From NCBI RefSeq assembly GCF_013128195.2, contig NZ_CP053452.2, positions 5,084,001 to 5,148,000 of the forward strand: a stretch of 64,000 bases of DNA. The letters are read 5' to 3'. The DNA comes from Frigoriglobus tundricola (lineage in GTDB: Bacteria > Planctomycetota > Planctomycetia > Gemmatales > Gemmataceae). Below the pieces are notes generated by a model, which saw nothing but the letters and a program-made list of their open reading frames with translations, was not told the DNA's origin and did no database searches. Of this stretch, positions 19,133 through 57,598 are shown in pieces. Within the stretch, counting starts at the first letter, position 1. Every line of letters starts with the position of its first letter. A program made the position numbers and the translations under genes.

Positions 19133-20740
19133 CTATGGCCGCTTTGCCGGGGCGGCCTCCTGCGCCGCCTTCTTGTCTTTCTCCTTGTCCTTGTCTTTCT
19201 CCTTGTCCTTCTCCTTCGCTTTCTCGACGATGTCGATCGCGGTCTCGAGCAGCTTCACGATCTCTTTCAGTGCGTACTCTTCGCCGGTGAGTTGGACGTC
19301 GTTCTTCTTCTTCGCGAGTTCCAGCGCCTTGGCGGTGTGGGCCTTTTTCTTCTCTTCCAACAGCTCTTTCAGGTCCGGGAGGGCCGGCTTCGCCTTCGCG
19401 CCCATCGCCGCGACCGCCGAGATCGCCGCCACCAGCGTTTCGTCCGTGGCGCCCTTCGCCGCCATGACGCGGACCACGTCGGTCAACTTCTTGGACGCCC
19501 CCTCACCGATGAGCTTGATGGCCCCGAGTGCCTGGAGCTTCACGCCGATATCGGGCGAGGTCAGGTACCGGGCGATTGCGTCCAGGTTCTCGTCGTTGAC
19601 CTCGTTGGGGTCGAACCGCATCAGCACGACCCGCGCCCAGATCTCGACCTGTTTGTCCTTTTCCAACCCCGGGGTCGGCGGCTTGGTCTTCGGGTCGCCG
19701 ACGCGGAGCCGCATCAACTGAATGATGACGGCCGCGCTCTTGACGTCGATCGGCGGGTCCGTCTCGGGGGCCCGGGAATGGAACGTAATGAGTTCCCCGA
19801 ACTTGTTCCACTCGTCCGCCGTAAGAAGCTTTCCAACTTCCTTCTCAAAGTCCGCCCGTTGCAACTCTTTATTGGATAAGGGGCCGAGCTTCACCAGCAC
19901 GGTGTCGGGAACCTGCGCTTGTTTCAGGTCCTTCAGCGCTTTCGCCGTGAGGTCGAACTGCGGCGGTTTTTTCACCTCGGCCCACGGCGGCCCGAGCAGG
20001 TAGAGCGATTGCGTCGCTTCCATGCGCACCGCCGCGCTTTCGTCCTTCGACAGCCGATCGGCCAGTGCCCGGAGCGCCTTCATGTTCGGCCCGGTCGTCT
20101 CACTGGAGCCGACGCGGCCCAGCGCGATGGCGATGTTCTGCCGCGTCGTGTAAGACGGGTCGTTGAGCGCCGTGCCGGTGAGCGCGGTGATCGCGCCCTC
20201 GCCCTTGGCCCCGAACATCGTGACCGTCTGGATCGCGCGCAGCCGCCCGAGGCCGCCGGGCACGCTGGTGTCGATGACCTGGGCCAGGATCCGCAGGGCC
20301 TCCCGGTTGTCGGCCTCGTGTTCGAACTGGAGGTTCCCGACCGCGGCGAAGATGGCGACCTTCACGCCGGGGTCCTTCTCCGCGGCCATCCGCTTCACGA
20401 GCAGCTTGCTCACCTCTCCCTTCTGGGCGGGCGGACCGAATTTGGGGATCAAGGTGGCGGCGAGCTCGCGGGTGACCGGGTCCGGGTCTTCCAGGTTCTT
20501 CATGACGGCGTGGATGTCCTTGCCGTTGATTTCGGTCGGCCAAACGAACTCCGGCTCCTTCTTTTCGGGCTCCTTCTTTTCGGGCTCCTTCTTTTCGGGC
20601 TCCTTTTTGTCCGGCTCCTTCTTGTCCGGGTGATTGTCCGCGGTGGGGCTGGCGTTGACGACAGCCCCGACCAAGAGCGCGAGCAGAACGGCCGCCGCGC
20701 CACGCCGCGCGGGGCGGACCCAGGTCATACGGGGGGTCAT
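19133..20740 (-). CDS. Exported HEAT-repeat protein with KKEPE repeats
   Basis: 535 residues from the ATG at 20740, preceded by GAGG. A basic N-terminus and hydrophobic core (about residues 11-30) form a signal peptide or anchor. Residues about 37-65 are a tandem pentapeptide run (KKEPD/KKEPE, six units). The body is alpha-helical HEAT-type repeats: PVTRELAATLIPKFG, AVRMEATQSLYLLG and GVKLQALGAIKLIG each mark repeat helices. The C-terminal ~25 residues are almost only K, D and E. HEAT solenoids bind proteins; the partner is unknown. The charged runs look like flexible linkers or polyelectrolyte segments. It is divergent from the protease gene at 21028. Confidence 0.7.
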   Translation of the reverse strand: MTPRMTWVRPARRGAAAVLLALLVGAVVNASPTADNHPDKKEPDKKEPEKKEPEKKEPEKKEPEFVWPTEINGKDIHAVMKNLEDPDPVTRELAATLIPKFGPPAQKGEVSKLLVKRMAAEKDPGVKVAIFAAVGNLQFEHEADNREALRILAQVIDTSVPGGLGRLRAIQTVTMFGAKGEGAITALTGTALNDPSYTTRQNIAIALGRVGSSETTGPNMKALRALADRLSKDESAAVRMEATQSLYLLGPPWAEVKKPPQFDLTAKALKDLKQAQVPDTVLVKLGPLSNKELQRADFEKEVGKLLTADEWNKFGELITFHSRAPETDPPIDVKSAAVIIQLMRLRVGDPKTKPPTPGLEKDKQVEIWARVVLMRFDPNEVNDENLDAIARYLTSPDIGVKLQALGAIKLIGEGASKKLTDVVRVMAAKGATDETLVAAISAVAAMGAKAKPALPDLKELLEEKKKAHTAKALELAKKKNDVQLTGEEYALKEIVKLLETAIDIVEKAKEKDKEKDKDKEKDKKAAQEAAPAKRP

Positions 20741-54374: not shown

Positions 54375-55316
54375 TCACCCGCCCAGCCCTTCGAACAACG
54401 GCGTGGACAGATACCGCTCGCCCAGGCTGCACATGACCGTGACGATCCGCTTCCCGCGGAACTCCGGACGGGCGGCGACCTTCGCGGCGGCGCACATGTT
54501 GGCCCCGCTGCTGATGCCGACCATTAGCCCCTCCTCTTTGGCCAGCCGGCGCGCCCACTCGAACGCCTCGTCGTTCGTCACCGTTATGACCTCGTCGAGC
54601 AGCGACGTGTCCAGGTTCTTCGGGACGAACCCGGCACCGATGCCCTGGATCTTGTGCGGGCCGGGGGCGCCGCCGCCGATGACCGGGGAGTGAACCGGCT
54701 CGACCGCGATCGCCCGGAAGTTCGGGTTGTGCCGGCGGATGAACCGCGTCACGCCGGTGATGGTGCCGCCGGTGCCGACACCGGCGACGATCGCGTCGAT
54801 GGCGTGCCCGCTGTCGTCCCAGATCTCGGGCCCGGTGGTCGCTTCGTGAACGGCCGGGTTGGCCGGGTTCTCGAACTGCTGCGGCATCCACGCGCCCGGC
54901 GTCCGGGCGACCAGTTCGCCCGCCCTCGCGATCGCCCCGCGCATCCCCTCGGCCGCCGGTGTGAGGACCAGATTCGCGCCCAGCGCCCGGAGCAGCGCCC
55001 GGCGCTCCACCGACATCGACTCCGGCATCGTGAGCGTCAGCTTGTACCCCTTGGCCGCGCACACGAACGCCAGCGCGATGCCGGTGTTGCCGCTCGTCGG
55101 CTCGACGATGTGGGTCTCGGCGGTCACCCGGCCGGCGCGCTCGCCCGCCTCGATCATCGCCACCCCGATGCGGTCCTTGACGCTGTTGAGCGGCTGGAAG
55201 AACTCGCACTTCGCGAACACGGTCGCGTGGTCGGCCGGCACCAGCCGGTTGATGCGCACCATCGGCGTGTCGCCGGTGGTCGCGTTCACGCTGTCGAACG
55301 TTTTCCCGCGCGGCAT
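54375..55316 (-). CDS. cysK: Cysteine synthase (O-acetylserine sulfhydrylase)
   Basis: 313 residues, standard length. Fold-type II PLP enzyme: Lys47 in NSVKDR binds [14 protein letters not shown] (73-83) is the substrate loop, [12 protein letters not shown] holds the phosphate, and SSGAN lies near the C-terminus. It makes cysteine from O-acetylserine and sulfide in the cytoplasm. It starts 18 bases after the stop of an Rrf2-type regulator on the same strand, so the two form an operon, and the regulator probably controls it in response to cysteine or Fe-S status. Confidence 0.88.
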
Positions 55317-55334: not shown

Positions 55335-55799
55335 TCAGATCCCGTCCCCGCCGACCAGTTCCAAACGGAACACCTCGCGGTCCGCGACCGGGTCCGTCCG
55401 GGCCACTTGGGCGAGCGTGGCGTTGTCCATGTGCGCGGCGGTCACGTTGCGGATGTCGAGGAGCACGCGGCGGAACCGGCACGTCGCGGCCTGGCTGCAC
55501 GGTTCGTTGTGCGAGATGGACACGCACCCGACCGGCGCGAGGACGCCGTCGAAGTGGCGGACGACCTGGCCGAGTGTGATCCGCTCCGGCGGCCGGGCGA
55601 GCACGTACCCGCCGGCCCGTCCGGGCGAGCTCTCGACCCACCCTTGCGACTTCAGGTCGAGCATGATGTGTTCGAGGAACTTCTTGGGCACGTCGTTCAT
55701 CTTCGCCAACTCGTTCATCGAGATCGGACCTCGCCCCCAGCGGTCCACGAGGGTCATCAGGACGCGAAGGGCGTAATCCGTCTTGCGCGAGAGCCTCAT
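55335..55799 (-). CDS. Rrf2-family transcription regulator
   Basis: 154 residues from the ATG at 55799; the frame is open further, but the upstream part is not protein-like. Winged helix: MRLSRKTDYALRVLMTL, ISMNELAKMNDVPKKFLEHIMLDLKSQGWV (recognition region), SSPGRAGGYVLARPPERITLGQVVRHFDG. Three cysteines (CVSISHNEPCSQAATC, spacing CX8CX5C, near residues 97-112) could hold an iron-sulfur cluster as in IscR (whose spacing is CX5CX5C). It lies directly upstream of cysK (18 bp), like CymR-type cysteine regulators. Confidence 0.8.
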   Translation of the reverse strand: MRLSRKTDYALRVLMTLVDRWGRGPISMNELAKMNDVPKKFLEHIMLDLKSQGWVESSPGRAGGYVLARPPERITLGQVVRHFDGVLAPVGCVSISHNEPCSQAATCRFRRVLLDIRNVTAAHMDNATLAQVARTDPVADREVFRLELVGGDGI

Positions 55800-55979
55800 C
55801 GCGTGTCCGCCTCGGTTGCGGGGAGTCGTGAACCGTACCCGGATGAAGCCGTCCGAATGTCGACTATTCGGGTCGATATTAGGCAACGCATCCGTGCGGC
55901 GTCAAAGGCCGGAAGCCCACTTAGTCAAGTCGGGAGGGTGCTGGCCGGATGGATGGTCGTGAGGTGCCGTTGAAACGAA

Positions 55980-56005
55980 CAACCCCACCGAATTCGGCGG
56001 GGTTG
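55980..56005 (-). terminator. Hairpin after Cys/Met-rich gene
   Basis: CAACCCCACCG (55980-55990) pairs with CGGCGGGGTTG (55995-56005) with one mismatch. It lies about 60 bases past the stop of the minus-strand gene ending at 56064 and before the Rrf2 gene, so it should separate their transcripts. Confidence 0.6.
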
Positions 56006-56063
56006 TGAGAGTTCGCGGTCGCCGGCAGGGGGCGGCACCGCGCGTGGGAGTCGGTGCGTTCGC

Positions 56064-56516
56064 TCAGCACATGCAGCAGCAGACCGGGGTGCCGCCCATC
56101 ATCATGCAGCAGGTGCAGCCGGCCTTCATGCAGCCCATGATGCAGTCGCAGCACGCCTGGATCATGTCGCCGCACATCTTGTCGCCGCTCGTGCAGGTGA
56201 CGCAGCACCCGGTGGCGGTCATCTCGCACTTGCACATGCCCATCGTCATGTTGCAGCAGCACACCATCATGCCGTTCATCGTGCAGCACATGCTGCACAT
56301 CCCCCCGGCCATCATGCCGCACAGGTTCTGCATCATGGTGCACGCCGCCGGGTCGTCGCACGAGCACGTGATCTTCATCCCGCCGGCGCACTTCTCCACC
56401 TTCATCGTGCAGCGCGGCACCATCACCATGTTCGGGGCCATGCCGGTCGGCATCCCCATCCCGCTGGTACCGGTCGAGGCGGCGGAGGCCATCGGGCTCA
56501 TCATCGCGGTCATCAT
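56064..56516 (-). CDS. Cysteine/methionine-rich small protein, probable metal binder
   Basis: 150 residues from the ATG at 56516, with GGGAG about 8 bases upstream (an extra in-frame ATG lies at 56573). After a Met/Ser/Ala-rich N-terminus of about 35 residues the rest is packed with Cys (about 29) and Met (over 30 in total), in patterns such as CSMCCTMNGMMVCCCNMTMG and CCDCIMGCMKAGCTCCMMMG. Aromatics are almost absent. Such composition fits thiolate/thioether binding of Cu(I) or similar soft metals (metallothionein-like or copper-storage-like). There is no signal peptide of classical type. The promoter should lie within 56517-56700. Confidence 0.65.
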   Translation of the reverse strand: MMTAMMSPMASAASTGTSGMGMPTGMAPNMVMVPRCTMKVEKCAGGMKITCSCDDPAACTMMQNLCGMMAGGMCSMCCTMNGMMVCCCNMTMGMCKCEMTATGCCVTCTSGDKMCGDMIQACCDCIMGCMKAGCTCCMMMGGTPVCCCMC

Positions 56517-57598
56517 GGTCGTCTCCCGGAAGAGGACATCGTGCAACAGCACGCGGGTTGATTGGGACTTCAAGGGAGATCATAAACTCGCTCGCACGCG
56601 ATGCAATTGCGACAACTTTGGTCGGTGTTCCCGATTTCTTCCCCCGTTTACGGACGGGCGCTCCGCGCCGTACTCCCAGACCCGACGCCCCACACGCCGC
56701 AAGTGGCGATGAGTCAATGCATTCTGTCACACCCATTCGTGGGTGGCCCGCCGTCAAAGAACGATCGGGGGCGTTGATTCGCGATCTCGGATTTTCCCAG
56801 TTTCAAAAGCGAAGACGCCCTTTGAGTGCCGGCCCTTACTTGGCGAACACGCCGTCGCGAATCACCCACACGACTGGCAGCGGGAGTCGGGTGTTTCTGG
56901 TTCGTGGCGCTCTCCCGTCGCTGACCCGAGGTCGCACGCCACCGTCGAGCGGGAGAATCGCCTCGTGCAATGAGGCGAAATATCACTTGGGTGATGATAC
57001 TTGACGCGCATTGCCCCGTGCCTACTTCGGCTCGGACGCTACCCCGCTCTGCACAAACCCACTCCGTCAGGTCGAAGCGGGAGCCACTTTCACGCACAGG
57101 GCGTCGTCGCAAAGCATTTGTATGTTTGTACTTATCCGAAACGTAACGATGAATTAGCAAGCCGCAAGATGACGCAGTATCGCACTCGTTCTGCGGGGAA
57201 GCCGCGTTCATCATTGCAATACATCATCTGGCATATCATCTTAGTGCGATAGAGATAGACGTTGCCGGCTCCTCCAATGTCGTCGCCACTCGGATTCGCG
57301 TCCGCAGGAGGTGTTGGCGAGGCAAGGGCCAAGGTGATTGCCCCGGCTCGCACAGGACAAGACATCGGGAGCGGCCGTGATCCAGATCATCTGGCAGGAT
57401 CAGCGACTCGACGTGCGTCGGTTGGTGTTCCGGCGCGGTCACGAGTCCGCTTTCGACGCGACCGTGGGCCGGCTGGCGGGCTAGTTCCGCCCGACGCCCG
57501 CACCGACCCCACCGGGTGACTTCTGGATCGGGTGCCACGCCCGCGTAGGGTGGGGCGCCGCCGGCCCCGATCGCATCGGGTGGGCCAGTTCCGTCGAG
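56517..57598. other. Degraded intergenic region, about 1.1 kb
   Basis: I find no supportable gene on either strand. Composition is more even than in the genes (several AT-rich stretches, e.g. 57120-57260). Short tails of plausible protein sequence appear in single frames (e.g. a minus-strand VWVIRDGVFAK ending near 56836) without starts or continuations. Together with the pseudogenes at 53960 and 57599 this looks like decaying sequence. Confidence 0.4.

Follow-up and report, generated by a model that had tools for sequence, protein, structure and literature searches.

A gene for a protein of extreme cysteine and methionine content (the C/M protein) is followed in Frigoriglobus tundricola by genes for an Rrf2-family regulator and a cysteine synthase (CysK), all on the minus strand, and these very probably constitute a co-regulated module of a polythiol protein and its cysteine supply. 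This C/M module, apparently undescribed, probably stores soft metal or sulfur. All positions given below refer to the window, the whole stretch of 64,000 nucleotides that was analysed. Up to now, no report of the C/M protein was found in the accessible parts of the open-licence literature.

The C/M gene occupies positions 56064..56516 of the minus strand, with the ATG at 56516 and the stop codon at 56066-56064, and encodes 150 amino acids; an alternative TTG start at 56573 would yield a protein of 169 residues. The product contains 29 Cys and 33 Met (41% Cys+Met) and no Trp, Phe, Tyr or His, in agreement with the count and the near lack of aromatics given by the first-pass annotation. CC pairs are numerous, and all 29 Cys are encoded by TGC. 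Cys and Met make up on average 1.1% and 1.4% of the residues in the 45 other coding-like ORFs found in the window, and relative to them the binomial chance of at least 62 Cys and Met in 150 residues is ~1e-57; in this ORF set the automatic caller had taken the plus-strand ORF 56005-56712 instead of the overlapping C/M frame. That plus-strand ORF was rejected as the true gene, since searches with the minus frame retrieved the relatives, which show the variation of coding sequence in that frame, and these relatives together with the dN/dS ratios identify the minus strand as the coding strand. Among 19 pairs tested, 18 gave a defined dN/dS, with values of 0.04-0.43 in 15 and 0.54-0.78 in three, and by this measure the C/M gene is mostly under purifying selection. 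The frame is open in relatives, with one internal stop in the matched stretch in two rows of the relatives sample. A chance low-complexity frame was likewise ruled out by the existence of a conserved family and the low ratios in 15 of the 18 defined pairs.

The Rrf2-family regulator is encoded at 55335..55799 on the minus strand, counted from an ATG (a longer TTG frame starts at 55886), and carries a CX8CX5C motif, and the cysteine synthase lies at 54375..55316 on the same strand. The regulator belongs to the Rrf2 superfamily according to PF02082 (120.7 bits, cut-off 30) and TIGR00738 (106.3 bits, cut-off 73.3), and its best specific NCBIfam match is CymR (NF047409), which at 71.2 bits stays below the cut-off of 195. 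The synthase is a member of the cysteine synthase A family (TIGR01139, 441.3 bits, cut-off 350.95). When 53 C/M loci were compared (52 distinct, L021 and L104 being one), an Rrf2 gene was found within 3 kb of the C/M gene in 19, as compared to ~0.004 expected per locus from 98 Rrf2 matches in about 150 Mb of 20 genomes; none was seen in the remaining 34, some of which are on short contigs. In the window type, the regulator gene follows the C/M gene on the same strand; it is upstream and divergent in L025-L029, L047, L049, L093, L100 and L102, and several unlike Rrf2 subtypes are represented. In the genus, the C/M gene is present in 6 of 19 genomes, and the window-type Rrf2 occurs as six copies in five of the 19, each less than 2 kb from a C/M gene; it was found in none of the 13 genomes without a C/M gene, and one C/M-bearing genome (G002) lacks it. 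Relatives of the window CysK at 88-100% identity occur in 4/19 genus genomes, always within the C/M module, and are absent from two of the six C/M-bearing genomes, whereas a second CysK at 58-61% identity is present in 18/19. Thus, the window enzyme is an additional, dedicated cysteine synthase whose occurrence is tied to the polythiol gene. The order C/M, Rrf2, CysK is also present in L055, a locus of another family of the class, with a CysK 75% identical. In all, a cysteine synthase or cystathionine enzyme lies near the C/M gene in 8/53 loci, namely a cysteine synthase within 3 kb in the window, L037, L038, L039, L054 and L055, cystathionine beta-synthase with cystathionine gamma-synthase in L050, and a beta-synthase-like match in L097. 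Among the neighbour ORFs within 2.5 kb, of which the nearest 120 of 210 were compared with Pfam, the most frequent families were Rrf2 (13), DDE_5 (11), PALP (6) and Pyr_redox_2 (4), and no metal-handling transporter, chaperone or sensor family was among the 25 of 122 families listed, with rarer ones possible.

Such a pairing of an Rrf2 regulator with cysteine synthase resembles the CymR-CysK system of Bacillus and Staphylococcus, in which, according to the accessible part of the report, CymR acts in a regulatory complex with CysK, and mutation of cymR raises the sensitivity of Staphylococcus aureus to copper and tellurite (PMC2869319). The complex and the copper sensitivity of the mutant together make cysteine control and copper stress compatible. 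The present module differs from CymR-CysK in that Rrf2 and CysK adjoin a polythiol gene and the window Rrf2 has the CX8CX5C triad; CymR is not known to have such a Cys triad.

Shared control of the C/M gene and of the Rrf2-CysK pair is predicted from palindromes upstream of both units, which would represent a putative operator of one regulon. An operator-like site of the form CGAC-N7-GTCG-NN-ATT is located at 56605..56624 (minus strand), 89-108 bp upstream of the C/M start codon, and a palindromic operator-like site at 55856..55880 (no strand assigned) lies over the -10 of the Rrf2-CysK promoter-like site TTGACG-18-TAATAT at 55905-55876. In L039, the arms of the Rrf2-CysK palindrome are perfect over 11 bp, CTAATATCGAC-N7-GTCGATATTAG. 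The pattern CGAC-N7-GTCG-NN-ATT matches only two sites in the 64 kb (three matches over both strands) against a shuffle mean of 0.07, a contrast that is not an independent test, as the pattern was written post hoc from these same promoters. Within L036-L039 its occurrences are confined to the two corresponding promoters, and four loci with Rrf2 and/or CysK (L041, L050, L054 and L055) do not contain it; the bare core CGAC-N7-GTCG is at chance level (6 found, 7.8 expected). The first-pass annotation had credited the C/M gene with promoter space and a terminator of its own. A block upstream of the gene is conserved between loci by eye, but a sigma-70 scan calls no site there, and a terminator-like 12-bp hairpin at 55979..56006 (minus strand), 58-85 nt past the stop codon, has a folding energy of -22.9 kcal/mol (z -5.2) but a weak T-run and is not among the sites called by the terminator scan. 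An Rfam element or riboswitch was also considered and rejected, with no match in 20 loci of about 3.4 kb. By eye, another palindrome-like block, roughly ACTAA or AGTAA followed by AACTTAGT, was noticed in L021, L022, L024, L040, L042 and L094 between the C/M gene and the divergent partner gene described below, and is possibly an operator of other regulators. A distinct subgroup (L099, L105, L106, L107, L109 and L110) has, again by eye, AAAATCGTTGCA and then a TATAAT-like element upstream of the C/M gene.

The C/M protein consists of a variable N-terminal tail and a conserved core, as seen in the alignment of its members. The tail, rich in Met, Gly, Ser and Pro, covers residues 1-32 (56421..56516, minus strand) and is modelled with low confidence. 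The core is divided, from the model and an alignment of the halves, into a first repeat of about residues 33-88 (56253..56420), with the order strand-strand-helix-strand-strand, and a second of about residues 91-150 (56067..56246), both on the minus strand. An AlphaFold model from 10 sequences has pLDDT 66 and pTM 0.56, with 90 of 150 residues at 70-90 and the tail below 50, and suggests with medium model confidence that the core is made of two bbabb units. The halves of a low-Met member (L019) align at a score of 70, above the maximum of 62 in 500 shuffles; the window protein scores 92, which, owing to its strongly biased composition, is no higher than the maximum of its own shuffles. No convincing relative of known structure emerged, as Foldseek against PDB chains gave nothing significant (best E 1.1, an absence of match that does not prove a new fold), VIA-align reached Z 4.2 at best among 998 chains aligned, with no convincing solved relative, and a PDB sequence search gave nothing significant. 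The window protein matches nothing in Pfam, NCBIfam or PHROGs, and 10 members retrieved no Pfam family at E up to 10 and only two NCBIfam matches, at E 0.16 and 1.3. Thus, by sequence comparison, the C/M proteins appear to be members of no family in the libraries searched.

Which of the two sulfur-containing residues defines the family was examined in 47 cores, obtained from 48 distinct cores taken from the loci after one incomplete core was dropped. These cores contain 15-34 Cys, 3-38 Met and 30-55 Cys+Met, and Cys is found in at least 90% of them at 14 columns. With relatives, dN/dS and these near-invariant columns, the view of a real, conserved Cys-based protein is borne out. Met content falls as the content of Leu, Ile, Val, Phe, Trp and Tyr rises (r -0.88; independent contrasts -0.79, with 0 of 10000 sign flips as low), whereas Cys content does not follow these residues (contrasts -0.02). 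Thus, it is Cys that stays constant, and Met, largely found at hydrophobic positions, behaves as an exchangeable hydrophobic residue, so that the high Met content is not what is conserved. The extremes of composition are L055, with 34 Cys and 5 Met, and the Omnitrophota pair, with 15-16 Cys and 36-37 Met, and the frame of L057 has 18 Cys and 73 Met in 247 residues, with Met mainly in a Met/Gly/Pro tail. The frames L057:8234-8977 and L056:894-1445 are the most divergent Planctomycetota members.

These compositions bear directly on a sulfur-amino-acid reserve, a possible though rather unlikely function, in which Cys and Met would be banked in a folded, non-toxic form, filled by CysK under a CymR-like Rrf2 and degraded, perhaps via the partner, when sulfur is short. 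A protein with 41% Cys+Met suits such a role, as does the use of Met in hydrophobic places, which raises sulfur with the scaffold unchanged, and Met is the commonest substitute in Cys-majority columns (89/322). Its genetic context agrees, with the dedicated CysK, an Rrf2 whose best specific match, below cut-off, is CymR, the cystathionine enzymes of L050 and an O-acetylhomoserine-sulfhydrylase-like gene 4.7 kb from the C/M gene in L028. However, a mere reserve does not need such strong conservation of Cys positions, Met-majority columns change to Leu, Thr and Val (106/64/62) far more than to Cys (30), the trade-off between Cys and Met is weak (contrasts -0.37, p 0.05), and lineages with only 3-8 Met exist. 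A self-contained version, with a hydrophobic core largely rebuilt from Cys and Met as a cysteine/methionine bank and with a dedicated CysK, an Rrf2 switch and a small partner, is considered unlikely; it would be comparable to cyanophycin for nitrogen. Very high Met and Cys contents are, according to the accessible parts of the sources, also a feature of sulfur-rich seed storage proteins of plants such as 2S albumin and delta-zein, and no bacterial counterpart was found in the portion of the literature searched.

Storage of soft metal, the function inferred by the first-pass annotation, is kept by its chemistry and the 14 Cys columns as the most likely single mechanism, but neither a match to a metal-binding family nor a listed metal-handling neighbour accompanies it. 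Specifically, a cytosolic polythiol store that holds soft metal, Cu(I) first, is a tentative reading, put somewhat short of an even chance. The closest precedent is the copper storage proteins Csp1 and Csp3 (DUF326, PF03860), which are likewise Cys-rich folded proteins with Met as a helper ligand, the Csp3 type being cytosolic; in the accessible part of the report, Cu(I) is bound mainly by Cys within the folded core, and Met/His sites at one end bind it more weakly (PMC7558416). A Csp is a four-helix bundle, whereas the C/M model shows, with medium confidence, bbabb twice. Bacterial metallothioneins bind metal in thiolate clusters and fold only with metal; the apo-form of the C/M protein is suggested to be folded by the predicted fold and the conserved turns. 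Profile searches in Pfam and NCBIfam, which had been proposed as a check against copper-storage and metallothionein families, found no match to such families, PF03860 included, in the window protein or 10 members. DUF326 is found in 20 of 95 genomes of the family, 12 of 28 with a C/M gene and 8 of 67 without, and the own genome has no match; the C/M protein as a simple stand-in for Csp was rejected, since both co-occur in family genomes. Like the metallothioneins SmtA and MymT, the C/M protein is small, Cys-rich and probably metal-binding, and it differs from them in being larger, duplicated and Met-rich, with conserved turn and helix residues, and in having Rrf2 and CysK as gene neighbours. 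SmtA has an ArsR-type neighbour.

The thiols may alternatively serve as a redox, sulfide or persulfide buffer, in which they would absorb excess reactive sulfur, cysteine equivalents or oxidants, with Rrf2 sensing redox or reactive sulfur species. The numerous CC pairs and the CX8CX5C motif of Rrf2 are in line with this distinctly unlikely function, as are two neighbourhoods, L050 with its cystathionine beta- and gamma-synthases and L051 with a gene that resembles CoA-disulfide reductase but scores below the equivalog cut-off. These neighbours, however, each occur in single loci, and no recurrent thioredoxin or glutaredoxin is among the 25 of 122 neighbour families listed.

A partner gene accompanies many C/M genes and encodes about 75 amino acids. 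Its product begins with a basic stretch, has 'AFV-CP' in the middle and a helix 'IYRLA-EQA', and mostly ends in Asn. In 41 of the 53 loci, the two from Omnitrophota among them, the partner gene lies upstream of the C/M gene in divergent orientation, at a distance of at most 1.4 kb; the window copy of the C/M gene has no partner. The partner model was derived from 29 of the upstream ORFs, whose own matches are thus built in; it finds the partner in 43 loci, 14 of them outside the model, and 12 of these 14 have it in the same place. Among 95 family genomes, it is present in all 28 with a C/M gene and in none of the 67 without (Fisher p 1e-24, relatedness ignored); 15 of the 28 had fed the model, and the partner was also detected in the 13 that had contributed nothing to it. 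Matches away from any C/M gene are few, for example in G026 at 2.26 Mb and in G459 on C229 and C44. In the phylum sample, with at most 14 candidates scored per genome, the partner was detected in 1/392 genomes (the own genome only) as compared to 5/392 for the C/M gene, and it may be lost or too diverged in distant lineages. It has no convincing match in Pfam or NCBIfam, and its model shows two helices at pLDDT 69. Rrf2 regulators often serve in Fe-S and iron control, and this link would suit a scaffold for Fe-S, Zn or another cofactor, or a structural role, with the partner as the acting component. That explanation, very improbable overall, draws on the exact match in presence and absence of partner and C/M gene in 28/28 and 67/67 family genomes, but about 25-30 Cys exceed the need of one cofactor and the partner was not found in distant lineages of the phylum sample. 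The linked Rrf2, CysK and partner point to cysteine or sulfur supply, with a reserve or a thiol buffer as alternatives to metal storage.

The C/M gene is found in 28 of 95 genomes of the Gemmataceae family sample, in 18 of 59 of the relatives sample, which overlaps with it, and in 1 of 193 of an Omnitrophota-centred sample, this one being the centre genome itself. A contig collection contributed nine loci, seven from contigs named Planctomycetota and two named Omnitrophota. Carriage as phage or plasmid cargo was rejected, as no relative occurs in viral contigs, plasmids or phages. The own genome has three copies, with identities of 100, 88 and 85%. A copy at 9.19 Mb (G000:C1:9191006-9191458, L002) shares 378 bp at 99.5% identity with the window copy (56067-56516), with no synonymous difference over the 118-codon core and with unlike tails and flanks, which suggests a recent event of gene conversion or a partial duplication. 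At 1.2-2.5 kb upstream of the C/M gene, a DDE_5 (IS701-like) transposase-like gene is found in the same orientation and rough place in L036-L040, L042, L043, L093, L096, L098, L100, L102, L104 (=L021), L022 and L024; its sequence is 40-67% identical to that in L040, and the gene seems to have been retained rather than freshly inserted. In L036, L037 and L101, a conserved protein of ~100 amino acids with a signal-like start, MRK...EVAFVKYD or similar, is encoded on the opposite strand 0.5-1 kb upstream. Elsewhere in the window, a 15-bp tandem repeat of about five copies with 92% matches spans 20550-20629.

In the proposed mechanism, Rrf2 would sense a signal, such as Fe-S, redox or cysteine state, upon which the store and its cysteine-making enzyme would be expressed together. 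The C/M protein would be a folded, cytosolic polythiol store, whose thiolates, aided by Met thioethers, may clamp soft metal, Cu(I) first, much as a Csp or metallothionein does and with a separate origin. Metal storage is favoured by the chemistry, the predicted folded core and the Csp precedent, the latter as described in the accessible part of PMC7558416, and a sulfur reserve or thiol buffer is favoured by the cysteine-linked context and the lack of metal-handling families among the neighbours listed.

Physiologically, the linkage of an extra CysK to a polythiol gene suggests a deliberate investment of the cell in these thiols. Should metal be held, the C/M protein would represent a copper-store design with a predicted fold unlike that of Csp, and should sulfur be held, it would store sulfur amino acids in a bacterium, a role for which no example was found in the parts of the literature searched. 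The shared putative operator points to a regulator and promoters worth testing, and further AATNNCGAC-N7-GTCGNNATT sites would favour a sulfur regulon if located at sulfur genes and a metal regulon if located at copper genes. A protein family without a match in the libraries, and with its own regulator, enzyme and partner, offers a testable unit for cysteine, copper or reactive-sulfur handling in some Planctomycetota.
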